NCBI RefSeq assembly: GCF_003546865.1
Contig: NZ_CP023434.1
Span: 2,232,001 to 2,296,000, forward strand
DNA from: Suicoccus acidiformans
Lineage (GTDB): Bacteria > Bacillota > Bacilli > Lactobacillales > Aerococcaceae
Reading direction: 5' to 3'
DNA: 64,000 nt
The number at the start of each line of letters is the position of its first letter. Positions within the stretch are counted from its first letter, which is position 1. Positions 15,475 through 64,000 of the stretch are shown piece after piece. The notes beneath the pieces were generated by a model. That model saw nothing but the letters and a program-made list of their open reading frames with translations, ran no database searches and was not told the DNA's origin. Position numbers and translations under genes: made by a program.

Positions 15475-17166
15475 TTACATTTCCTCCGGTGCATTCACCC
15501 CCAGCAATGCCAAGGCATCCTTTAAGACAATCGTCATGGCTTGCACTAAGGCAATTCTTGCGGAACGTTGGTCGTCTTCTTCAAGAATACGGACATTAGC
15601 ATAGTATTTATTGAAAGCTTGTGCTAATTGCACCGCATATTTAGCAATCACAGACGGCTCATAGCGTTCCATGCTGTGAGCAATTATTTGAGGATATGCT
15701 CCGAGTTTCTTCACAATATCCCAGCTATAATCATCATCTAAATTGAACGCTTGGGTTAATTTAGCGTCTGAGCCAACTTTTCTTAGAATACTTTTAGCAC
15801 GGGCATAGGTATACTGTACGTAAGGGCCGGTCTCCCCTTCAAATTCTACAATCTCTTGTAAGTTGAAGTCGAAGCTGTTCATGCGATCCGTCTTCAAATC
15901 GTGGAAAATCACCGCGCCTACGCCGACATCGTGAGCAACTTGGTCTTTCATCTCTAAATCAGGATTCTTCGCTTCAATTTGCTCATAGGCTAAGTCAATC
16001 GCTTCCTTTAGCACATCTTCCAGTAAGACAATATCCCCTTTACGGGTGGATAGCTTGCGCCCGTCTTTGGTAATTAAACCAAATGGGACATGCACGATGT
16101 CCTCAGACCATGCATAGCCCATCTTGCTTAAGACGGCTTTTAGTTGTTGGAAGTGCACTCGTTGTTCATTTCCTACAACATAGACATTCTTGGCGAAATC
16201 ATAGGTATTCTTACGGTAAAAGGCAGCAGCGAGGTCACGTGTGACGTAAAGGGTGGCGCCGTCTGATTTTTTGATAAGGGCTGGGGGGAGGTCTTCTGCT
16301 GACAAGTCAACGATGGTAGCCCCTTCATTCACTTCTGTGATGCCCTTATCTTCTAATTCTTGAATTACTGGCTCCATCTTATCATTGAAGAAAGCTTCAC
16401 CATGATAAGAATCAAAGGTCACCCCTAAGATGTCATAGACTTTCTGGAATTCTTTGAGAGATTCTTCCCGAAACCAACCCCACAATGCTAGCATCTCTTC
16501 GTCACCATCCTCAAGTGCTTTAAAGGCTGCACGTCCAGCTTCATCTAAGCTCGGATCACTTTCGGCTTTCTCATGGAATTCAACGTAAAGCTTCACGAGT
16601 TCTTGCACAGGATTCGCGCGAACTTTGGCCTCATCGCCCCAACCTTTGTAGGCCACGATGAGCTTCCCGAATTGTGTCCCCCAGTCCCCCAGATGATTAA
16701 TGCGAACGGGCTGGTAATTAGTCTTAGTTGCAATGTTTGCGATGGCATGACCAATCACCGTTGAGCGCAAATGACCCATTGACATGGGTTTGGCGATATT
16801 AGGGGAAGAAAAGTCGATAGTCATCACTTCGCCTTGGCCAATATTCTGGGAGCCGTATGTTGCGCCTTCGGCTAAGACTTGTTCAATGATATGAGCTCCG
16901 ACTTTGGTGCGCTGTAACTTCACATTAATGTAAGGTCCGATAACTTTAACCTCGCTAAAGGAACGTTTGTCCATCGCCTCGGCTACTTCTTCGGCAATCA
17001 TTTGGGGCGCTTTGCGCAATACTTTGGCCAATTGGAAAGTAGGGAACGCTAAGTCGCCATGTTCTGGGTTATTTGGCACTTCAATCAATCGTTCAATCGC
17101 TGCATCGTCTAAATATTCACCTACAGCCGGCCGTAAAGCCTCTACTAGAATTTCTTCATTATTCAT
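15475..17166 (-). CDS. argS: Arginine--tRNA ligase
   Basis: A 563-residue class I aminoacyl-tRNA synthetase that charges tRNA-Arg. The N-terminal tRNA-recognition domain is followed by the HIGH-like motif in SPNIAKPMSMGHLRST (~123-138), the catalytic core, a KMSK-like LSTRKGD, and the DALR anticodon-binding C-terminus ending ALALLGVNAPEEM. An in-frame start at 17181 exists, but GAGGAGG six bases before the ATG at 17164-17166 fixes the start (MNNEEILVEALRP). Expression is controlled by the Arg T-box upstream. Confidence 0.96.
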   Translation of the reverse strand: MNNEEILVEALRPAVGEYLDDAAIERLIEVPNNPEHGDLAFPTFQLAKVLRKAPQMIAEEVAEAMDKRSFSEVKVIGPYINVKLQRTKVGAHIIEQVLAEGATYGSQNIGQGEVMTIDFSSPNIAKPMSMGHLRSTVIGHAIANIATKTNYQPVRINHLGDWGTQFGKLIVAYKGWGDEAKVRANPVQELVKLYVEFHEKAESDPSLDEAGRAAFKALEDGDEEMLALWGWFREESLKEFQKVYDILGVTFDSYHGEAFFNDKMEPVIQELEDKGITEVNEGATIVDLSAEDLPPALIKKSDGATLYVTRDLAAAFYRKNTYDFAKNVYVVGNEQRVHFQQLKAVLSKMGYAWSEDIVHVPFGLITKDGRKLSTRKGDIVLLEDVLKEAIDLAYEQIEAKNPDLEMKDQVAHDVGVGAVIFHDLKTDRMNSFDFNLQEIVEFEGETGPYVQYTYARAKSILRKVGSDAKLTQAFNLDDDYSWDIVKKLGAYPQIIAHSMERYEPSVIAKYAVQLAQAFNKYYANVRILEEDDQRSARIALVQAMTIVLKDALALLGVNAPEEM

Positions 17167-53762: not shown

Positions 53763-54943
53763 ATGACTATCGAATTTGATTTACTAGCCACTACCGCGAT
53801 TGGTTGTGTTATCGCACTGATTGGTCGTTATTTCAACCGTCATATACGTGTCCTTAGAGAATGGGCCATTCCAGCCCCTGTCTTCAGTGGGTTACTTTTC
53901 GCCATCCTAGCCTTTCTTTTAAATTCCACGGTAGGGCTCAGCTTCAAATGGGATAAGACGCTTTCAGATTTCTTAATGAATATCTTCTTTACCTGTATGG
54001 GATTCAGTTTTAGCCTGAAGAATTTACGTGAAGGCCGTCTTTATATTGTGCCTACTTTGTCACAATTACTGCCATCGTCTTTATCCAAGGCTTTATTGGG
54101 ATTGGTGTCGCCAATCTATTCGACCTAAACCCGCTCGTAGGGGTTAATGCCACAGCCGGAGCGCATGTCTGTGGACCTGGCACCTCTGCTGCATTCGGAG
54201 AAATATATGAAGTCCTCGGTGCCATTGGTGCCTCAGAGGCGGGGATTGCTTCAGCAACCGCTGGACTCGCCTTAGGTTCCTTGACAGGCGGACCCGTTGC
54301 CTCGCTCATTATTCGATGCCATAAACTTAAAGCCGATCCAACCGAAGAAACGTTTCGCAATGATGATACATCACACGTTAAACTGAATAAGGACCGGGTC
54401 TTCCGCTCTTTAGCTTTAATTATCATCACTGGAGCTTTAGGTATTCCCATCCAAGCCTTATTGAAGATGATCCCAATGATTGAAGTACCTTACTTCATCG
54501 GCATGCCCTTCTCCGGGGCAATTGTTCGCAACGTAATGGAAGCATTTAACATGACTTTCTTTGAAGAGGAAATCAGCATGATAGAAAGCATCAGCTTGGA
54601 AATCTTCCTCTCCATTACCATTATGACCTTGGATTTCGCGACAATCCTTCACTTAGTTGGACCGATTATCATTATGATTGTTCTCGACTTAGTAGCGACA
54701 TTAGCTTTCGCAGCCTTTGTCTGCTTCCCAGCATACGGCAAGGATTACGATGCAGCGGTCATGACAGCCGGCTTTATCGGAACAGCCATGGGCTCAGGTA
54801 CCAACGCCATTGCCAATCAACAGTCGGTCATGAACGAATTCGGCTATTCCCACAAAGCTTAGGTCATCTTCCCAGCCTTATCTGTTATCGCAGTAGATAT
54901 TGCTAACCCGCTCTTCATGTCCATTATCCCACAATATTTATAA
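53763..54943 (+). pseudogene. gltS: GltS-family Na+/glutamate symporter gene, frameshift plus nonsense
   Basis: The first frame encodes MTIEFDLLATTAIGCVIALI through FFTCMGFSFSLKNLREGRLY. Near 54050 a small indel shifts the frame, which then reads YFVTITAIVFIQGFIGIGVA, TAGAHVCGPGTSAAFGE and the second half of a GltS carrier. A TAG at 54860-54862 stops that frame, yet in-frame sequence (VIFPALSVIAVDIANPLFMS) continues to TAA at 54941-54943. Two lesions in an otherwise well-kept gene indicate a recent pseudogene. It borders the left end of the genomic island. Confidence 0.8.
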
Positions 54944-54956
54944 TGCTAGATGCTTA

Positions 54957-54995
54957 AAAGCCACGCTGCCTCTTTTGGATAGCGTGGCTTTAATT
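54957..54995. terminator. Terminator downstream of gltS
   Basis: AAAGCCACGCT / AGCGTGGCTTT followed by AATTATT. Before the island arrived, the same hairpin would have stood between convergent gltS and guaA. Confidence 0.8.
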
Positions 54996-55009: not shown

Positions 55010-55025
55010 GCGATTATTCCCACTC
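55010..55025. repeat. Left attachment-site repeat of the guaA island
   Basis: GCGATTATTCCCACTC, identical to 63342-63357. The right copy is the last codons and stop of guaA read in reverse (GAG TGG GAA TAA). Confidence 0.75.
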
Positions 55026-55161
55026 TTCTTTTCCAAATGTACAGTATATCCCAAATCGTTCAAAACACTAGATTCTATTTTTTCTAATATCACTAAGTCC
55101 ACCTAATTATAGGACATTTTCAAATTTTTAGTCCCGTCCAAGTCCCAGTACCGGAGAAATA

Positions 55162-55224
55162 TTTTTTTGCAAATTTGCAGTATTTACTCATTTAAATAAG
55201 TTTTAAATGCTCTAAGATAAATAC
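55162..55224 (+). promoter_or_regulatory. Upstream motif and promoter region of the ABC/two-component operon, copy 1
   Basis: TTTGCAGTATTTACTCAT at 55174-55191 recurs exactly at 59066-59083. The flanks are also similar (T-run, TTTGCAAA against TTTGTAAA, and TTTAAA against TGTAAA downstream). AAGATAAAT about 21 bases on may be the -10. I infer a binding site for the LuxR-type regulator of this operon. Confidence 0.55.
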
Positions 55225-55260
55225 ATAAGAAAATAAGTCTTATTGATAGGAGGTTTATAA

Positions 55261-55923
55261 ATGAATGTAATTGAAGTGAAAAACATGAGTAAAAATTTTA
55301 AAAACAAGAAGCTTTTTAATAATTTTTCTCTAGAAATTGAAGCTAATACAGTCCATGCCTTTGTTGGTCCTAATGGATCTGGCAAGACTTCTCTGCTTAG
55401 GATACTCACTGGTCTTTATGAAGAAGATGGTGGCGAAGTTAAGATTAAGGGAAGTCATGCAATGTTACTTGAAAATGACTATTTGTATGAAGATAAGACA
55501 GGACTTGAAAATATTAAATTATACGGTTTATATTTCGGCTATTGTTTAGATTCTTATCAAAAATATTCTGACTTGTTAGAAATTACAAATGATCTAGGTA
55601 GAAATGTTTCGACATATTCTAAGGGTATGAAGAGAAAATTATCTTTGTTAATTATTGTAATGATGAATAGAGAGATAATATTTTTAGATGAGGTAACTAG
55701 TGGGGTAGACCCAATCTCAAGAGTCGAGATAAGAAAGCTTATTAAGCTTCTAAAAGATGAGGGTAAAACAATAGTAATTACAAGTCATGATCTTTCTGAA
55801 ATTGAAAAAGTAGCCGATAAAGTATCTATGATAAAATCAGGAGAGCTGCTTTTTACGAAGAATATAGACGAAATTCAAGAAGAAAGCTTAGAAGATTTAT
55901 TTATAGAGGAAGGTACAAAATGA
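55261..55923 (+). CDS. ABC transporter ATP-binding protein (island)
   Basis: A 220-residue single-domain ATPase. Walker A is VGPNGSGKTS (~37-46), the signature is the variant STYSKGMKRKLSL and Walker B IIFLDEVTSGVD; the H-loop is in ITSHDLSE. It has the pattern of ATPases serving ABC-2-type exporters for peptides, antibiotics or lantibiotic immunity. AGGAGG precedes the ATG by eight bases. It overlaps the next gene by four bases (ATGA). Codon use (AGA, ATA, TTA) differs from the host genes. Confidence 0.9.
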   Translation: MNVIEVKNMSKNFKNKKLFNNFSLEIEANTVHAFVGPNGSGKTSLLRILTGLYEEDGGEVKIKGSHAMLLENDYLYEDKTGLENIKLYGLYFGYCLDSYQKYSDLLEITNDLGRNVSTYSKGMKRKLSLLIIVMMNREIIFLDEVTSGVDPISRVEIRKLIKLLKDEGKTIVITSHDLSEIEKVADKVSMIKSGELLFTKNIDEIQEESLEDLFIEEGTK

Positions 55924-56633
55924 ATGATAAGATGAATATTAATAGGGCTTGTCGCTACTATTTAAGAAAAGATAAAGATTTTATTTCGAGTTTATTATTA
56001 TTTACTTTGATTTCTCTAGGCTTTATTTTTTTACTGTATAAGGGAATGTTTGATTCTAGAGGAAATGATTATATTGTATTGATGCTATATGTACTAATGC
56101 TTGGAATTTCAATTCTTATGTCTAATCTTATGGTTGTCAATTTAACAGTCAAGGATAAACTAAATAAACGTATTGAATTTATCCTAGGGTCAGGAATTAA
56201 TATAAAAGATGTGATTAAAGCATATGCAATAGAAATGTGGAGACTATCTTCTATTGTTCCATTTTTATTATTTTTGCTAACTTATGTCCTAGTAGACTTT
56301 AAAATTGAATTTAAGTGGATTGTGGGAATGTTTGTGACAATGATAGGAATGACCTATTTTGAAATCCTATTTTTTAACCTTATAAGTTTATCCCAAAAAA
56401 ACTTTAAGTTTTTCAAAAATATTGTTTTCTTTGGAACAACAATTTTAATTTACATGATAGGCACATTTTCAGGAAAGATTCTATCATTAATAGAAAAATA
56501 TAACCTAAACCTTATTTATATCATTTTAGGAATAAATATAGGATTAGGATTAATCTTTGCAATATTTTCTATGAAAGATTTATCTAAGATGAATAATGAA
56601 TCTGTAATTAATAAAGAAGGGTCATGGTCATGA
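55920..56633 (+). CDS. ABC-2-type membrane protein 1 (island)
   Basis: A 237-residue protein with about six membrane segments and no other recognisable domain. After the second segment it carries TVKDKLNKRIEFILGSGINI, a cytosolic loop also found in the next protein (KISKKLEFFLANGLSIKK), so the two permeases are paralogues. Such pairs form the channel of exporters driven by the preceding ATPase. The substrate is unknown. It overlaps its neighbours at both ends. Confidence 0.75.
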   Translation: MNDKMNINRACRYYLRKDKDFISSLLLFTLISLGFIFLLYKGMFDSRGNDYIVLMLYVLMLGISILMSNLMVVNLTVKDKLNKRIEFILGSGINIKDVIKAYAIEMWRLSSIVPFLLFLLTYVLVDFKIEFKWIVGMFVTMIGMTYFEILFFNLISLSQKNFKFFKNIVFFGTTILIYMIGTFSGKILSLIEKYNLNLIYIILGINIGLGLIFAIFSMKDLSKMNNESVINKEGSWS

Positions 56634-57268
56634 TCTTAGTAATTAACGATTTAAGAAAGCTTTTAGATAAAAATGCCGCACTTATGTCTATTATGGCACT
56701 TATCTGCTCATTTATGGCTTTGTTTTTTGGCGATGGAGGAAGTCAAGAAATAAATAAGGTCATCGATATAGTTAAAATTGATGGGATTTTAATACTTTTT
56801 GTAATGTTTGGAGTGGAACTTGCTAAAAACACCTTGGTATCAGATAAGATTAGCAAAAAGCTTGAATTTTTCCTTGCAAATGGACTTTCTATAAAAAAAA
56901 TTCTAGCCAAATATTTGTTTAGTATTTATTTTGCAACTTTGATAATAGTCCTTCCAAGCCTTATATTAAACCTAGTTAAACTTGATCTAAGCTTAACCAT
57001 TGGTATAAACTTAATCACATCAAGTTTTCTTTACACTCTAATAATAGTTTTTGTAATTCTTAATACTAGAAACATGAATAAAGTAAATTCTCTCCAAATT
57101 CGTTTGATAGGACTATCCTTAGTAGTCATGATAAGTTCTTACCTAGTATATAATTTTACAAATTCCTTGCCTGGCTACTTGATAACTAAGCTTTTGTTTT
57201 TAGGATCAGTAATTATAATTTTGGGTATAAATACCAATAAAGAAAGGATTGTAGTTAGCTACTATTGA
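56624..57268 (+). CDS. ABC-2-type membrane protein 2 (island)
   Basis: A 214-residue protein with about six membrane segments (LMSIMALICSFMALFFG, GILILFVMFGVELAK and later segments). The loop VSDKISKKLEFFLANGLSIK aligns with that of permease 1. The ATG at 56624 lies inside the end of the previous gene; a second ATG at 56630 is possible. It stops three bases before the histidine kinase start. Confidence 0.72.
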   Translation: MVMILVINDLRKLLDKNAALMSIMALICSFMALFFGDGGSQEINKVIDIVKIDGILILFVMFGVELAKNTLVSDKISKKLEFFLANGLSIKKILAKYLFSIYFATLIIVLPSLILNLVKLDLSLTIGINLITSSFLYTLIIVFVILNTRNMNKVNSLQIRLIGLSLVVMISSYLVYNFTNSLPGYLITKLLFLGSVIIILGINTNKERIVVSYY

Positions 57269-57271
57269 GAT

Positions 57272-58432
57272 ATGTATAAGAAATTAGAAAAAATTGTAAT
57301 CAGCCATTTAATGATAATTTTACTTTGGGGTCTTCTTTTTAAAAACAAGATGTTAGTAAAAGAAGGCCCGATTTTAAATGCAGTTTCTCTTATTTTATTT
57401 TTCACCTTGTATGGACTTATATACACAGAAATTTCAAATAAAAAAATACCTCAAAGATTTTCTGTTTTGGTAATTTTCACATCATTATTACCATTAAGTT
57501 TGATTTTAATAAATGATTTACCTTATAAGGTCGCCCTTTTTCTTATAAGTCTTATCTCAACAAGCCTATTTATTAAAAGATACTTAATTTTAGAGAATAT
57601 AAAATATATAGATATATTGCCAATATCAAGAAAATCCACCCAAATATTTACTATTAGACTTGTATTTTTTATTTTTGCAGTGATTTATTTATTTGATATA
57701 GATACGGTAATAATAAATATATTTATCCAAATAATTTTCCTTATTACAGAATTTTTCTTTATCCTATTTTTAAAGGAAAAAGAATTATCTTTTGAGAAAA
57801 CTTTCAAACTTTATTACCTGTCAGATTATATGGCAAGCGAAAGGGATGAATTTGCAAGAATTATCCATGATGATATTATCCAAGATATATTTGCAAGTAA
57901 AAATTTTCTGTCGTCAAAAAATCCTGATATAGAATATACTAAAAACATTCTAAGGGAACTTGAGAAAAAAGCAAGAAATATAATGAAATTCTATCAGTCA
58001 TCTTTATTTGAAAAAGCAAACTTAGAAACATCTCTCTCAGCAATATTTGATAATGTAAGTTCACTATATCCAGATAAAAATATCGAAATAAAAAAGCTTA
58101 TCGAGTCTGATCTAACAGAAGATAAAAGATTAATTAGGTTGATTTCAATAATATCAAAAGAACTTATAAATAATGTATATAAACACTCAGATGCGACCTA
58201 TTTAAACTATAAATTATATAGGAAGGAAAGTCTTATAGTTATAGAAATGGATAGTGATGGAGCAAGCCTTTCTGATTTAAATAAAATTAGGGAATCTAAA
58301 AGAGGAGTCTTGCTACTTAATCTATTAATAGATTCAAATGTAGGAAATATTTCTTATAGCTTAAATAAGGATATATTATCTACAAGAGTTTGCTTGGAGG
58401 TGGGAAGAGATGAAAATTATTTTGTTAGATGA
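57272..58432 (+). CDS. Membrane sensor histidine kinase, HisKA_3 type (island)
   Basis: A 386-residue kinase. Roughly six membrane segments fill residues 1-165 with almost no extracellular loop, as in sensors that detect signals in the membrane or monitor a transporter. The phospho-acceptor is H199 in EFARIIHDDIIQD. The ATPase domain shows the N-box KELINNVYKHSDATYLN, but the later glycine boxes are degenerate (MDSDGASLSD, KRGVLLLNLL). It overlaps the response regulator gene by 23 bases. It probably phosphorylates that regulator to control the ABC genes. Confidence 0.85.
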   Translation: MYKKLEKIVISHLMIILLWGLLFKNKMLVKEGPILNAVSLILFFTLYGLIYTEISNKKIPQRFSVLVIFTSLLPLSLILINDLPYKVALFLISLISTSLFIKRYLILENIKYIDILPISRKSTQIFTIRLVFFIFAVIYLFDIDTVIINIFIQIIFLITEFFFILFLKEKELSFEKTFKLYYLSDYMASERDEFARIIHDDIIQDIFASKNFLSSKNPDIEYTKNILRELEKKARNIMKFYQSSLFEKANLETSLSAIFDNVSSLYPDKNIEIKKLIESDLTEDKRLIRLISIISKELINNVYKHSDATYLNYKLYRKESLIVIEMDSDGASLSDLNKIRESKRGVLLLNLLIDSNVGNISYSLNKDILSTRVCLEVGRDENYFVR

Positions 58433-59003
58433 TCATAAAATATTTGGGGAGTCTCTTAAGATGCTTTTAGAAGAGCAAGATGAAATATCATGTGTTTATG
58501 TATCGAAAGGTCAAGATTTTCTAAAAATGATAGAAAAAGATGCCTATGATATTTTCTTAATTGACATAAATTTAAAAGATGATAAGACAGGCCTTGATCT
58601 AATTAGAGATTTGATAGAAGATAATCCCAAACAAAAGATAATAGTCTTAACCTCTTATGATTTAGATAATTACAAGGATATGGCTTTTAAGTTAGGAGTT
58701 AAAGATTTTATAAATAAGTCTGTAGAAATTGAAGAGCTTTTAGAAAGAATAATAAATGTATATAAAGGAAAATTCAAGAAAATAGACAAGCACATCTCAG
58801 ATCCCTTAACCAAAAGGGAGATAGAAGTATTAAAAGAGCTAATAAAGGGTGAGAGTAAAAAGAATATTGCGGCTAAGCTTTTTATTAGCGAGAGAACCCT
58901 TTATAACCATATAGCAAATTTATACGATAAATTAAGGGCTAAAAATATTGTTGAAGCCTATAATAAGGCTATGGAACTTGGCTATATCGATCCAGTCATG
59001 TAA
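58410..59003 (+). CDS. LuxR/NarL-type response regulator (island)
   Basis: A 197-residue regulator. The receiver domain has the acidic pair D7/D8, the phospho-acceptor D52 (IFLIDINLKDD), a Thr/Ser in IVLTSYD and Lys in FINKSVE. The C-terminal LuxR HTH runs from ~135 to 195 (LTKREIEVLKELIKGESKKN, ISERTLYNHIANLYDKL). It is the last gene of the operon. The 18-bp motif upstream of the operon and again past this gene is its likely target, by inference. Confidence 0.9.
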   Translation: MKIILLDDHKIFGESLKMLLEEQDEISCVYVSKGQDFLKMIEKDAYDIFLIDINLKDDKTGLDLIRDLIEDNPKQKIIVLTSYDLDNYKDMAFKLGVKDFINKSVEIEELLERIINVYKGKFKKIDKHISDPLTKREIEVLKELIKGESKKNIAAKLFISERTLYNHIANLYDKLRAKNIVEAYNKAMELGYIDPVM

Positions 59004-59023
59004 AATTTATAGATTAAAAATAT

Positions 59024-59057
59024 TTGGAGATTAGAATATTCTATCTCCAATTTTTTT
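59024..59057 (+). terminator. Terminator of the island operon
   Basis: TTGGAGAT / ATCTCCAA followed by TTTTTTT, 20 bp after the response regulator stop. Confidence 0.88.
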
Positions 59058-59123
59058 GTAAACTTTGCAGTATTTACTCATGTAAAATGAAAATCAAGAG
59101 TATAGAATAAAAATATAAAGGAG
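59058..59123 (+). promoter_or_regulatory. Upstream motif and promoter region, copy 2
   Basis: TTTGCAGTATTTACTCAT at 59066-59083 repeats the motif of copy 1. TATAGAAT about 20 bases on is a plausible -10, and AAGGAG at ~59118-59123 is a ribosome-binding site. A second regulated unit therefore began here; it is lost to the right, where IS256 starts. Confidence 0.55.
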
Positions 59124-59133
59124 ATTATATTTT

Positions 59134-59175
59134 ATGATTTATGAAAACCCTCATAGATATAAAAACGGAGATTAA
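59134..59175 (+). CDS. 13-codon open frame behind promoter copy 2 (truncated gene or short peptide)
   Basis: MIYENPHRYKNGD, starting with ATG ten bases after AAGGAG and ending in TAA. It may be the stub of a gene removed when IS256 arrived, or a short peptide under the regulator's control. No family recognised. Confidence 0.35.
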   Translation: MIYENPHRYKNGD

Positions 59176-60017
59176 ACATCTTGTTAACTTATTATAATCG
59201 TAGAAATAAAAAGAAAGAAGCCAAGTTCATAATCCTGTGTAAAATACTATACAATGTTTCACCGGTCTCTCATTGATCAAACTTAATATATTTTCTTGTA
59301 AAACTGAGCCATTCGTCATGAAGGTCCATAAGGACAGCTCCAATTAATCGATTGGCAGACGTTCGGTTGGGAAAAATCCGAATAATCTTTTCTCTTCTGC
59401 GAACTTCCTGGTTCAGTCGTTCAAGAAGGTTGGTGCTTTTTAGCCGATTGTGACCATTTCCGATAACCGTGTATTGAAAGGCATCTTTGAAGCCATTATC
59501 CAATGTTTCGCAAGCTTTTGTATATTTAGACTGGTCGATATATTCACGGACTAAGGCATTCTTAGCTGTTCGAGCGAGTTCAGTATCCGTAAACTTAAAA
59601 ATCGCTTTTACTGCTTCTCTAAACGGTTTTGAATTCTTTTTTGGAATAGAACTGAAGATGTTTCTTAAAAAATAGACCTGGCATCTCTGCCAACTTGCGT
59701 TGGTATATGACTTACGAATTGCAGACACTAGGCCTTTATGGGCAGCAGAAATGATGAGTTCTGTCCCCCTGTAGACCGCGTTCTTTTATGTATTCAAAGA
59801 AGATGGACCATGTGTCATCACTTTCTTCATTTTGGATCATGAAGAAAGTGATTTCACGATCACCACCTTCTGTTATCCCGATCGCAATATGGCAGCTTTT
59901 AGAAAGTACTCGATGGTCCTCACGGACTTTTATGTAGAGAACTGTTTGTTGTAATCTAAAAAGGGACCACCTTCGGGGTAAATTGCTATTCAAAAAGGGA
60001 CCACTTGCCATGCCTTT

Positions 60018-60045
60018 CCATCTATAATAAACGTATTATAGATGG
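60018..60045 (+). promoter_or_regulatory. Perfect 12-bp hairpin upstream of istA
   Basis: CCATCTATAATA, loop AACG, TATTATAGATGG. It overlaps TATAAT and touches the GGAGG before the istA start, so it may dampen transposase expression. Confidence 0.5.
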
Positions 60046-60057
60046 AGGTGCCAAGGA

Positions 60058-61545
60058 GTGATTCGTATCAATAAAGAATTCGAAGTGATTCACCGTTTTA
60101 GAAATGGGGAATCCATTAGGAAAATTAGCAGAGACATGGACATTGATAGAAAAACGATTCGAAGAATAAGGGATCGATACCAAGCAGGTATAGATGCTTT
60201 GGATGACGCTCAAAATGAGAAAGAAATCGAAGCAGCAACCGAACAATTAGTCTTAGAAAGAAAATATGATACTTCCAATCGGAAAAAAAGAACCTTTACA
60301 CCAGAGGTGGAAGCTAGAATGAGCGAATTACTGGAAAAAGAAAGAGAAAAGGATCGAAGGCTAGGACCTCATAAACAAGCACTAACGGCTAAGGCTGTTT
60401 ATGAAATCCTAGCAGAGGAAGGGTATGCGATTAAATACCGGACAGTCGCTCATTACTGGTCAAAAATGAAAGCGAAAGCTAAAGAGGCTTTTATCAAGCA
60501 AAATTATGCATTGGGTGCACGGGTGGAGTTCGATTTTGGAGAGGTCAAATTAGAAATTGAGGGCGTGGTTAAAACCTATTATCTCGCTGTGTGGGCTAGC
60601 CCTGCTTCAGATTATTACTGGGCTTACCTCTATACCAACCAGAAAAAAGCTGTCTTTCAGGATGCGCATGTGCGATTTTTTGAAAACCTGGGTGGGGTGT
60701 ATGCGGAGCTTGTCTATGACAATATGAGAAATGTGGTCACTCGTTTTATTGGGCGTAATGAAAAGGAGCTAAACCCCCAACTCATCCAATTAGCCACTTA
60801 TTATGGGTTTAATATTAATGTCACCAATTGCTTCAGTGGGAATGAGAAGGGAACAGTAGAGAGTCGTGTAAAGCATGTCAGACAAAACTGTTTCACCAAA
60901 AAATATCAATTTCAATCTTTAGATGAAGCTCGCCAGCATTTGGAAGAGTCCTTACGGACTTTGAATCAAGAGAGTCGTTTGGAAGAAGAAAAAGGCCACC
61001 TTCTTAAATACCGTCCTCCCTTTGAACTGGCAGAACTTTGTCAGCTCAGCGTCACAAAGTATGCCACGATTCATTATCAGAAGAATCAGTATTCTGTCCC
61101 TGACTACTTGGTAGGGAAGCGAGTTCAGATCAAGGCTTATGCCGATTATCTCGTGGTTTATGCCAATGAACAAGAAGTGGCCAGGCATAATAAAATAGAG
61201 GGTTCCCATGGGTTTCAGCTTGATATCAGTCACTATATCAAAACCCTCAAGAAGAAACCTGGTGCTCTGGAACACTCGCTGGTTCTTCAACAAACCCCCG
61301 GCTTGGAAACACTCTATCATAAATATTATAGCGGACACCCTAAAGAATTCATAGAACAACTTGAGAAATACCATAGCCTCAGTGGAGAGGCTTTGTGCCA
61401 GCAATTGGCCTATGATCAGTTGGTGCAACGTGTCACAACGGAAAATGAGGGTGTTCCTAAAAATCAGGAGGCGATTCTTCATCAGACAGAAGCAACGCTC
61501 CATCAATTAAATGCTCTCTATGGTTTGGAGGAAAGCTTATGTTAA
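60058..61545 (+). CDS. istA: IS21-family transposase IstA
   Basis: A 495-residue DDE transposase. An N-terminal HTH (SIRKISRDMDIDRKTIRRI, ~20-38) binds the ends. The catalytic residues are in ARVEFDFGEVKLE (first D), ELVYDNMRNVV (second D) and GNEKGTVESRVKHVR (E). The start is GTG with GGAGG eight bases upstream. It overlaps istB by seven bases. It appears intact. Confidence 0.93.
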   Translation: MIRINKEFEVIHRFRNGESIRKISRDMDIDRKTIRRIRDRYQAGIDALDDAQNEKEIEAATEQLVLERKYDTSNRKKRTFTPEVEARMSELLEKEREKDRRLGPHKQALTAKAVYEILAEEGYAIKYRTVAHYWSKMKAKAKEAFIKQNYALGARVEFDFGEVKLEIEGVVKTYYLAVWASPASDYYWAYLYTNQKKAVFQDAHVRFFENLGGVYAELVYDNMRNVVTRFIGRNEKELNPQLIQLATYYGFNINVTNCFSGNEKGTVESRVKHVRQNCFTKKYQFQSLDEARQHLEESLRTLNQESRLEEEKGHLLKYRPPFELAELCQLSVTKYATIHYQKNQYSVPDYLVGKRVQIKAYADYLVVYANEQEVARHNKIEGSHGFQLDISHYIKTLKKKPGALEHSLVLQQTPGLETLYHKYYSGHPKEFIEQLEKYHSLSGEALCQQLAYDQLVQRVTTENEGVPKNQEAILHQTEATLHQLNALYGLEESLC

Positions 61546-62300
61546 CAATCGCAGAAGCCGCTAATGAACTAAAACTTCCCTATCTGAAGGAAAATTACCA
61601 ACACCTGCTCCTGGAATATACGAGTCGCGGACTGGATTTGGAAGAAGCCCTCACAGAGATATTGACAGAGGAGGTGGAACAACGTCGAAATCGAAGCTAT
61701 CAAAGAAGGATTCGACAGGCCAAGTTTAGCCAAAAGAAGTACCTGATGGACTTTGACGAGAAAGTGTTTAAGGAAGGTGTTCGCCAACAACTACGCGAAT
61801 TAAAGACCCTGAATTTTATTCAAGAGAAACAGAACGTCATTCTTATTGGCAACCCTGGAACAGGGAAGACGCATTTTAGCATTGGTCTTGGCATGGAGGC
61901 CTGTCTGCAGAATTATCATGTACAGTTCGTAAATGCCCCAAATCTTGTTATTGAATTAAGAGAGGCCGTCACGCAAAGTCAATTTTATCGCTTCAAACAG
62001 CGATTAAATAAGGTCGATCTCTTGATTGTCGATGAATTAGGTTATTTATCCTTTGATGAAGCCGGGGCTGAGCTTCTGTTTAATCTTCTTTCTAATCGGA
62101 TGGGAAAGGGCTCTACAATGATTACGACGAACCTTACCTTTGATCGCTGGCAGGAATGCTTTAAAGACCCGACCTTAACGGGAGCCCTGGTGGATCGTTT
62201 AGCCTTTAAGGCGCATGTTGTGGACATGCGAGGGGAGAGTTATCGGATGAAGCAGACCAGTGCCTGGAAGGAGGCGCAAGCCAGCCAAAAGGAGGTATGA
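61539..62300 (+). CDS. istB: IS21-family helper ATPase IstB
   Basis: A 253-residue AAA+ ATPase that assembles on target DNA and activates IstA. Walker A is GNPGTGKTH (104-112) and Walker B LLIVDELGYLSF. It is intact and translationally coupled to istA. Confidence 0.94.
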   Translation: MLTIAEAANELKLPYLKENYQHLLLEYTSRGLDLEEALTEILTEEVEQRRNRSYQRRIRQAKFSQKKYLMDFDEKVFKEGVRQQLRELKTLNFIQEKQNVILIGNPGTGKTHFSIGLGMEACLQNYHVQFVNAPNLVIELREAVTQSQFYRFKQRLNKVDLLIVDELGYLSFDEAGAELLFNLLSNRMGKGSTMITTNLTFDRWQECFKDPTLTGALVDRLAFKAHVVDMRGESYRMKQTSAWKEAQASQKEV

Positions 62301-63041
62301 AGCGCTGAGACACTTTCTTCTTAACTAACTTTTCATAAATTAGCCTAAGCCGTTACATTGACCCAAAAGGTGGTCCCTTTTTCAACGGCAAGGTGGTCCC
62401 TTTTTCACTTGACATATACAAGAACATCAGTAATCAGATAAGGATAACTCGTACCTGAGAGTGAACGGTTCTGCCATTCGTTGACCATCGGGTCTAACTG
62501 CTCAGTCAGGCTAGAAACAAAAGATTTCGATACCGTTTTTCCACATAGCTCTTCAACAATCTTTGAAACTTTACGTGTCGAAACGCCTGAAACATACATC
62601 TCAAGCATTGAAGCGAGCAGTGCTTTTTTCATTTCGCTGATAACGCTCAAACACCGTCGGTGAAAATTCACCATCACGTGTTCTAGGCACTTTTAATTTG
62701 AGTGTGCCCACACGAGTCGTAAAGTCTCGCTCATAATAGCCATTTCTTTGACTCTGACGACTTTCTGAACGTTCATAGTCATCGGCTTGAATATATTCTG
62801 TTCGTTGATTTTCCATCAATTGGTTGAAAACAGTGGTCAAAATATTTTTAGAAACTTCATCTTTTACCGAATGTTCAATAATACTTTGAACCTCTTCGTT
62901 GTTCAGTGTGAAATGTATTTGGGTCATGTAACGTCCTCCTGGGTATGTTTTTGTGGTTAAAAACTTGTACCGTAAAAGGGCTGTTACATGGCCTTTTATC
63001 CTTTACACAATTATATGGACTTTATAGATTTTTTGTTTGTT

Positions 63042-63146
63042 TTATGTCACAAATGTATTATCTCCTAACATTTTACTTACCTCTTTTACAATAGCCATTA
63101 AAACATCTACCACAATAGAATTACCAGCCTACTTATAAAGTTTGTT
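63042..63146 (-). pseudogene. C-terminal remnant of a C5 DNA methyltransferase
   Basis: Leftwards the frame reads NKLYK, a TAG at 63129-63131, then AGNSIVVDVLMAIVKEVSKM and stops at 63042. YKQAGNSIVV is motif X of cytosine-5 methyltransferases; the Gln codon has become TAG. Only the last ~35 codons remain, next to the right end of IS256. A restriction-modification system was probably once part of the island. Confidence 0.6.
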
Positions 63147-63180
63147 TTAGGTGTAAATTTTTATTTTTGTATGTATTAAA

Positions 63181-63217
63181 AAGATCGTAGCTTGAAACTA
63201 CGATCTAATTTTTTGTC
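63181..63217. terminator. Bidirectional terminator near the right end of the island
   Basis: AGATCGTAG / CTACGATCT with a seven-base loop; T-rich tails on both strands (AATTTTTTG rightward, TTTTTAATAC leftward). It would now terminate guaA transcripts. The rest of 62928-63345 holds the IS256 end and the methyltransferase remnant. Confidence 0.8.
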
Positions 63218-63341
63218 CAAATGCAAACCACTTGGAACTATTATTCAATTTATTCTTTTTTTACAAATGTTCCCATTTTAATCCCAATTACAGTTTTTAA
63301 TCCTCTGTAGCCATTGATTTTACAAGGTTTTTTTGTTTTTT

Positions 63342-63357
63342 GCGATTATTCCCACTC
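63342..63357. repeat. Right attachment-site repeat at the guaA 3' end
   Basis: GCGATTATTCCCACTC, the second copy of the 55010-55025 repeat. It includes the guaA stop codon and last three sense codons (Glu-Trp-Glu). Confidence 0.75.
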
Positions 63358-64000
63358 AATGGTTGCGGGTGGTTTACCTGTGACGTCATAGACCACGCGG
63401 TTAACGTGAGGTACCTCATTTACAATACGGGTACTAATTGTTTGAAGAACATCCCAAGGTAAACGGGCAAATTCACTGGTCATTCCATCTACCGATGTTA
63501 CGGCACGAATGCCTAGCATATGGTCATACGTACGACCATCCCCCATAACACCTACACTGCGGACATTCGGCAAGACCGTAAAGTATTGCCATACATCACG
63601 TTCAAGACCGTTCTTAGCAATCTCTTCCCGCAGAATCGCATCTGATTCGCGTACGATTTCTACCTTCTCATCAGTAATCTCACCGAGAACACGAATACCC
63701 AAGCCTGGTCCTGGGAAAGGTTGGCGCCATACGATACTATCAGGCATACCTAGGGTCGTTCCCAATTGGCGAACTTCATCTTTGAATAGGGTATTCAATG
63801 GCTCAATCAATTCAAAGGTCATATCTTCCGGCAGACCTCCGACGTTATGATGGGATTTGATTGTTTGGGCGGTATCGGTCCCAGACTCAATCACATCCGT
63901 GTAAAGCGTACCTTGGGCAAGGAAGTCAATGCCGTCCAGTTTCTGAGCTTCATCATCGAAGACATAGACAAATTCGTTCCCAATAATCTTACGTTTCTCT
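63346..64000 (-). CDS. guaA: GMP synthase (glutamine-hydrolysing), C-terminal part
   Basis: The frame is open to the window edge, so the gene continues to the right; ~218 codons are visible. They cover the end of the ATP pyrophosphatase domain ([25 protein letters not shown]) and the dimerisation domain ([17 protein letters not shown], and the end KPPATIEWE). The enzyme converts XMP to GMP. The full C-terminus is intact, so integration of the island preserved the gene. With guaC (6.9 kb) it gives both directions of IMP/GMP exchange. Confidence 0.97.

Follow-up and report, generated by a model that had tools for sequence, protein, structure and literature searches.

The interval at the guaA end and its conserved termini

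We analysed a window of 64,000 nucleotides from Suicoccus acidiformans (contig NZ_CP023434.1), in which positions 55010–63357 lie between the 3' end of guaA and a host gene that we take to be gltS. From guaA outward, this interval is made up of a short core sequence, a conserved right end, the remnant of what is presumably a cytosine methyltransferase (the name comes from reading its open reading frame, ORF), an IS1542-like insertion sequence split by an IS21-family copy, a cargo of ATP-binding cassette (ABC) transporter and two-component genes, a conserved left end and the core again (Table 1). Very probably, to judge from sequence comparison, the interval belongs, as a member without an integrase, to a family of elements residing at the guaA 3' end, likely placed there by the tyrosine integrase of that family and likely carrying immunity genes.

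The sequence GCGATTATTCCCACTC borders the interval on both sides as exact copies. A preliminary description of this DNA had proposed a guaA island bounded by this repeat, to be doubted if the 16-mer were scattered by chance over many loci; such scatter was looked for, and the whole genome (2.57 Mb) holds the two exact copies and one extra site with two mismatches. At up to two mismatches the window gives two matches; the mean over 100 shuffles is 0.04. The positions proposed for the two copies, at the guaA terminus and past the terminator on the gltS side, are borne out by the sequence: the right copy is the end of guaA on the minus strand (..IEWE-stop followed by TCGC), and 18 bp separate the terminator hairpin from the start of the left copy. 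The core common to relatives is GA[G/A]TGGGA[A/G]T[A/G], which has 11 bp and is contained in the 16-bp repeat, and in alignment ATCGC does not follow the core in most other left ends. TCGC was considered as part of the core and rejected, since most other left ends are without it; an early frame reading, in which the left copy was a piece of a ParB-like gene, was rejected as well, the open frame not being kept in relatives.

Stronger evidence than the repeat comes from the two ends of the interval, and it is these that uphold the island at the guaA 3' end: both are conserved element termini, with 77–93% identity in other genera of the same family (Aerococcaceae). A 191-base left-end query matched 11 of 395 genomes of the order, ten of them in the window's family (the window genome and nine others, from six other genera) and one weakly (G217). 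Matches to the right end (164-base query) were found in 16 of the 76 family genomes, 13 of them strong once the weak short ones in G010, G026 and G087 are excluded, and in nine of these 13 the right end begins 8–10 bp past the last guaA residue. In the ten family genomes with a left end, guaA lies on the same contig, 5.4–46.5 kb away, in eight and on another contig in two. At the left core, conservation in the alignments extends on the element side as far as the core, and the opposite side differs between genomes; this far side is common to G425 and G462 and, in several arrays, is the next element's right end. As far as alignments tell, the pattern at both ends is that of attachment sites.

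In the family of Anaerococcus hydrogenalis (Peptoniphilaceae), the left end is present in 75 of 130 genomes, at 138 places (per-genome matches summed by hand; three of the 75 genomes rest on matches under 55 bp) and often several times per contig, and by these matches the element family is mainly at home in anaerobic cocci. An end is found no more than 8 kb from guaA in five of 14 stretches from the Anaerococcus family, namely those of A. hydrogenalis (G402), Urinicoccus massiliensis (G400), Ezakiella (G405), G518 and G513, where guaA is directly adjacent. Across relatives, varied cargo is bounded by the ends around the core, and arrays occur with ends back to back (e.g. locus L158, left end 15600–15742 and right end 15743–15905). 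By inspection, stem pairs of the right-end hairpin covary between some members (e.g. GACCGTAG/CTGCGGTC and GATCGTAG/CTACGATC), and in one genome (G001, locus L060) two guaA copies about 2 kb apart stand ahead of an element array.

The flanks were also compared. The hairpin outside the left copy is strong and, without the element, would sit 34 nt past the first core base. Among eight folded relatives lacking this element, a comparable hairpin lies just after guaA in six (L009, L010, L017, L029, L031 and L033) and a weaker one in two (L005 and L006); the occupied right side of the window element has no strong hairpin in the same span. This pattern gives indirect support to the left flank being the former downstream region of guaA, i.e. 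to an empty-site model. gltS was not found in 65 guaA loci of the window's and related genomes, and no relative among them has guaA and gltS adjacent and free of an island. The gltS-like gene itself is frameshifted within the first third of its length and has a premature stop, after which 26 further in-frame codons follow.

The interval had also been described as compositionally foreign or mobile throughout. Foreign composition holds for the cargo, with a G+C content of 26.9% against 44.9% in window positions 1–53000, and not for the nested insertion sequences, which have 41–43%. In a phage collection only a 64% match was obtained, to one unannotated record.

Table 1. Features at and beside the guaA element of S. 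acidiformans, in window positions.
Feature	Position	Strand	Evidence
gltS-like host gene (presumed name), frame broken, outside the element	53763..54943	+	three-frame reading
Host terminator hairpin just outside the left copy	54957..54991	.	folding
Left direct repeat, putative attachment core, distal copy	55010..55025	-	exact repeat and end alignments
Conserved left end of the element	55026..55168	-	80–90% identity, 9 other family genomes; 75/130 Anaerococcus-family genomes
16-bp motif TTGCAGTATTTACTCA, predicted promoter/operator	55175..55190	+	upstream of the operon in 11/11 relatives
ABC transporter ATPase	55261..55923	+	best NCBIfam match lantibiotic-protection ATPase TIGR03740, below cut-off
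Membrane protein, predicted ABC permease 1	55920..56633	+	operon position; weak ABC2_membrane match, E 0.76
Membrane protein, predicted ABC permease 2	56624..57268	+	operon position; no significant family match
Sensor histidine kinase	57272..58432	+	weak NCBIfam matches MctS, LiaS, NarX; no Pfam match; A. prevotii plasmid copy annotated so
LuxR-type response regulator	58410..59003	+	Response_reg and GerE
Second exact copy of the 16-bp motif	59065..59080	+	
13-codon ORF MIYENPHRYKNGD after the second motif	59134..59175	+	one residue differs in A. prevotii
IS1542-like IS256-family insertion sequence, interrupted (ends read by eye, approximate)	59223..63024	-	97.5% to E. faecium plasmid copies; Transposase_mut pieces
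IS21-family insertion sequence	59943..62420	+	IstA 60058–61545, IstB 61539–62300; 5-bp target duplication AGAAC
Presumed cytosine-methyltransferase 3'-end remnant, 93 bp	63083..63175	-	84% to Ezakiella L040, 77% to Urinicoccus L035
Conserved right end, terminator hairpin at its end	63178..63341	-	16/76 family genomes, 3 weak short
Right direct repeat, putative attachment core at the guaA end	63342..63357	-	exact repeat and end alignments
guaA 3' part, continues past the window	63346..64000	-	

Members of the family with and without an integrase

Elements with the same ends and an integrase were identified in three genomes, with distances between the ends of 46.6 kb (G081), 8.9 kb (G027) and 14.2 kb (G425). 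All three share one gene order (XRE repressor, tyrosine integrase, NikA-like, VapE-like and MobC), and identity to the G081 integrase is 96% for the enzyme of G027 and 97% for that of G425, the family integrase being composed of the domains Arm-DNA-bind_4, Phage_int_SAM_3 and Phage_integrase. A MobA/VirD2-type relaxase (PF03432) is intact in G081, whose gene set is, by its predicted products, that of an integrative mobilizable element (IME). The cognate integrase, counted at a minimum of 60% identity over at least 235 residues and with fragments in G401, G419, G451 and G519 excluded, occurs at 27 places in the Anaerococcus family, six of them with internal stops. The 46.6-kb element of G081 (L116–L118) also has a Tn916-like element nested in it, with a second integrase and a gene that, we presume, resembles tet(M) by its N-terminus. 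Other integrases, 32–54% identical to that of the family, lie beside guaA or within about 6 kb of it in further genomes (G013, G064, G066, G073, G086, G012 and G011), and because of these diverged enzymes more than one integrase lineage appears to use the guaA site.

Between the ends of the window element, neither the searches for integrase, relaxase, MobC, NikA, VapE and XRE nor the Pfam analysis of the main ORFs gave any of these genes, confirming the absence of an integrase noted in the preliminary description. The genome has other tyrosine recombinases, and none cognate to the G081 integrase was found in it at E 1e-20. Looking among relatives for islands with the same cargo plus an integrase, as had been proposed, yielded integrase-bearing elements with the same ends and none with this cargo.

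Members without an integrase are frequent. Of 26 end-to-end intervals in the examined stretches, three contain the cognate integrase and 23 do not. Selecting stretches around ends biases the share of integrase carriers downward, and some of the intervals depend on incomplete end matches; in G444 and G517 the integrase genes fell just outside the examined stretches. In eight of 29 right ends the terminator hairpin is followed by one and the same truncated mobC, five in anaerobic cocci (G513, G517, G400, G444 and G401) and three in the window's family (G061, G005 and G001), and in six of the eight, G401 and G005 not being among them, the sequence continues to a left end without an integrase on the way. 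An element with a copper ATPase, integrase-less in all four genomes, has 94–95% identity when G061 or G070 is compared with G517 or G513. A second element, with FtsX-type permease, ATPase and two-component genes that we read as BceAB-like, is 84–91% identical among G001, G074, G444 and G517; the copies of G444 and G517 may not be integrase-less, as an integrase gene is located a few kb ahead of the examined stretch. The lantibiotic-immunity cargo of G029 shares 94.6% identity with that of G005. The shared junction and the nearly identical copper-ATPase element in both bacterial families support the view that integrase-less forms may have spread, either mobilised in trans by the integrase of a relative or carried along in cis within a tandem, the alternative being parallel loss.

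The sister elements in the window's family differ in what they carry: lantibiotic-immunity and two-component genes in G029 (L085), FtsX-type permease, ATPase and two-component genes in G001 (L060) and G074 (L090), and a copper ATPase with a repressor-like ORF in G061 and G070 (L086 and L087).

The cargo operon and its probable donor

The exporter and two-component system of the window element had been described as kept cargo, and we found their reading frames intact. Against three relatives, dN/dS is 0.05–0.30 in 14 of 15 comparisons (the remaining row, the L037 regulator, is invalid owing to an indel and was left out), which reflects mostly the history of the donor. The motif TTGCAGTATTTACTCA lies 86 bp before the ABC start in the window, and in the relatives it is exact in ten copies and has two mismatches in one.

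Over nearly their whole length, seven of 11 related cargo loci, from Anaerococcus, Peptoniphilus, Urinicoccus and Ezakiella and all in the family of Anaerococcus, are 84–91% identical in DNA to the window cargo; of the remainder, a Clostridium metagenome-assembled genome has 81% and the other three are at 66–71% or partial. The cargo is also carried by the conjugative plasmid pAPRE01 of A. prevotii, with 89.6% identity. In the window's family, relatives of the kinase at E 1e-10 are found in four of 76 genomes including that of the window, the other three at 40–44%.

On pAPRE01 the operon starts with a Cys-rich peptide of 41 residues, MKPEIVAMGNGCKLCAGCTGCMFCGPSPAAGVGVAGFVGFF, and a radical S-adenosylmethionine (SAM) protein whose best NCBIfam match is AlbA, below cut-off. 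Peptide and enzyme are both complete in four of 12 copies (L034, L038, L041 and L045) and incomplete in two (L040, with the peptide and only the end of the enzyme, and L039, with pieces); within 2.6 kb upstream, neither was found in the other six (L035, L036, L037, L042, L044 and the window), L036 having a short degenerate peptide after the motif. Since an AlbA-like radical-SAM enzyme, as in the subtilosin alb operon, accompanies the Cys-rich peptide, the latter is predicted to be a sactipeptide-type bacteriocin. The arrangement that marks a sactipeptide operon, a Cys-rich precursor beside its radical-SAM maturase, is thus present in A. prevotii and three other copies and not in the window, where the cargo is predicted to be an orphan bacteriocin-immunity module, without the peptide and the modifying enzyme. 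A. prevotii is named as a sactipeptide carrier at Apre_1837 in one survey (PMC4289311), which we take to be a neighbouring operon on pAPRE01 and not the cargo-type operon.

In its ATPase, two small membrane proteins and two-component system, the cargo is similar to the LanFEG/MutFEG immunity systems. It differs from them in that the ATPase scores below the lantibiotic cut-off, the membrane proteins fit no family well (Pfam assigns neither to the LanE/LanG permeases) and no peptide or modifying enzyme was found. The sister guaA element of G029, on the other hand, has MutG and gallidermin-type immunity genes above cut-off (MutG with 221 bits vs. 117, the ATPase with 388 vs. 310), and these genes make peptide resistance a putative recurrent cargo of the guaA element family.

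At several places in Peptoniphilaceae (L034, L038, L040, L041, L045 and L156) we observed short ORFs whose products terminate in RYKNGD or a close variant, and such an ORF follows the 16-bp motif of the operon in the window and in A. prevotii; it may encode a leader peptide whose last codons contain a ribosome site. No ORF of this type was found in viral contigs, and an exact-DNA search for it among the examined loci listed only the A. prevotii copy and that of the window.

Origin of the element and its significance

We propose that the integrase of a relative recombined the attachment site of the element with the guaA end, which would have left guaA intact and the core on both sides, and that excision would now take place only if a family integrase, of which the genome has given no trace, entered the cell. 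The cargo corresponds to the export and sensing part of an operon from anaerobic cocci, with the predicted operator directly before the ABC genes. The kinase would sense a peptide or the damage caused by it, the LuxR-type regulator is predicted to bind the 16-bp motif, and the ABC transporter would expel the peptide, providing immunity without production.

Several observations weigh against this proposal. No element with this cargo was found elsewhere, so that the entry of the cargo into the element is not seen, and in eight Anaerococcus-family genomes with a kinase of at least 79% identity none of the left ends counted lies on the same contig within 20 kb of the cargo. The relaxase is intact in one of the three integrase-bearing elements only, being in pieces in G027 and not found in G425. 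There is no empty site from the same species or genus in the comparison set, which includes no genome of that genus, and the insertion sequence copies could account for part of the present layout. As regards immunity, the ATPase reaches 152 bits against TIGR03740, with a cut-off of 309.75; neither permease has a Pfam match better than E 0.08, and permease 1, the one of the two run against NCBIfam, has no match there; the structure predicted for permease 1 by AlphaFold is of unusable quality, with a confidence score (pLDDT) of 46.

Among the other explanations, a chance repeat, with no relation between the 16-mers and another route of arrival for the foreign DNA, would leave the additional ATCGC past the core as a coincidence; two matches appeared in none of the 100 shuffles, and the recurrence of both termini around the same core in other genomes refutes this idea, whose probability we regard as negligible. 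Elements of the Tn5801 type are the best-known guaA elements in Gram-positive bacteria. The guaA 3' end, which the preliminary description had called an established hot spot of integration, is indeed published as such for IMEs (PMC5357655) and for Tn5801, with 11-bp direct repeats (PMC4844618). A remnant of such a Tn916-family conjugative element would share target and repeat length with the interval; nevertheless, the window ends belong to a family with the integrase/NikA/VapE/MobC gene set, and, judged by gene content, the window ORFs searched include no Tn916-type integrase or conjugation gene and no tet(M), whereas Tn5801 is a 25-kb Tn916-type element with tet(M). This makes a Tn5801-type origin very unlikely. 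That the cargo is a peptide-signal loop and not an immunity module, with the 13-codon ORF exported as a signal and sensed by the kinase, is somewhat less far-fetched, as this ORF follows the same 16-bp motif in A. prevotii with one residue different. We still consider it improbable, given that RYKNGD-type ORFs at several other places suggest a translation leader, that the ORF is degenerate in P. timonensis (L038) and that the same ABC and kinase genes stand behind a bacteriocin-like operon in four of the 12 copies.

A history of decay in place comes close to an even chance: a complete mobilizable element would have entered guaA in an ancestor, lost its integrase, VapE and mobilization genes by insertion sequence activity and be immobile now. 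Consistent with this are the two nested insertion sequences, the methyltransferase remnant persisting beside the right end, the lack of a cognate integrase in the genome, and the lack of a 5–9 bp target duplication flanking the IS1542-like copy, which a deletion extending outward from that copy would explain, a weak point in that the same search found no 7–9 bp duplication around the E. faecium copy either. Against it stand the abundance of integrase-less copies (subject to the sampling around ends and to partial ends), the single internal junction at right ends from both bacterial families, and the high identity of the integrase-less copper-ATPase element between them. The term "frozen", applied to the island earlier, is not proven: the element retains two intact attachment sites, and members without an integrase exist in two families, yet no cognate integrase is found in the genome.

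The integrase-less element placed by a relative's integrase can be compared with known classes. Cis-mobilizable elements (CIMEs) are described in two studies as derivatives of integrative conjugative elements (ICEs) or IMEs that keep both attachment sites, have lost the integration and transfer genes and can carry cargo (PMC5704250, PMC7563491). Because both ends are kept and the integrase and mobilization genes are lost, the window element would fit this definition; an ICE or IME ancestry is suggested by the same ends in G081, G027 and G425, the deletion itself being inferred, and an integrase of its own, as in an IME, is lacking. It shares attachment sites, gene loss and cargo with the streptococcal CIMEs and differs from them in being solitary, at guaA, outside streptococci and recognised by conserved ends; the detection method of one of the two studies is stated to capture only CIMEs in tandem with other elements (PMC7563491). 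IMEs with a tyrosine integrase at the guaA 3' end are likewise described for the streptococcal Tyr_3 family and for ATE-1 of Trueperella (PMC5357655, PMC5704250); they have the target and integrase type of the present family in other hosts, and are likened to it by their published description.

A literature search over titles and abstract openings found no published description of a guaA element family across bacterial families, nor reports on guaA islands in Anaerococcus or on mobilizable gene transfer between Aerococcus and Anaerococcus. The conserved ends turn a weak clue, the 16-bp repeat, into a recognisable family, and an end-based search finds solitary integrase-less islands that integrase-first searches miss. 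The series of cargo copies, from complete through incomplete to immunity only, suggests how a producer operon may become a pure resistance gene set. Joining two distant bacterial groups and carrying several peptide- and metal-resistance modules, the family would be a traceable route of bacteriocin resistance. Tentatively, and with the odds somewhat against us, we may go further and regard the guaA ends as a shuttle common to Peptoniphilaceae and a family of Bacilli, in which integrase-less derivatives would outnumber integrase-bearing ones, move by a borrowed integrase and specialise in orphan peptide-antibiotic resistance, that is, in immunity operons stripped of their bacteriocin genes; if this is true, orphan immunity operons would be delivered to new hosts.

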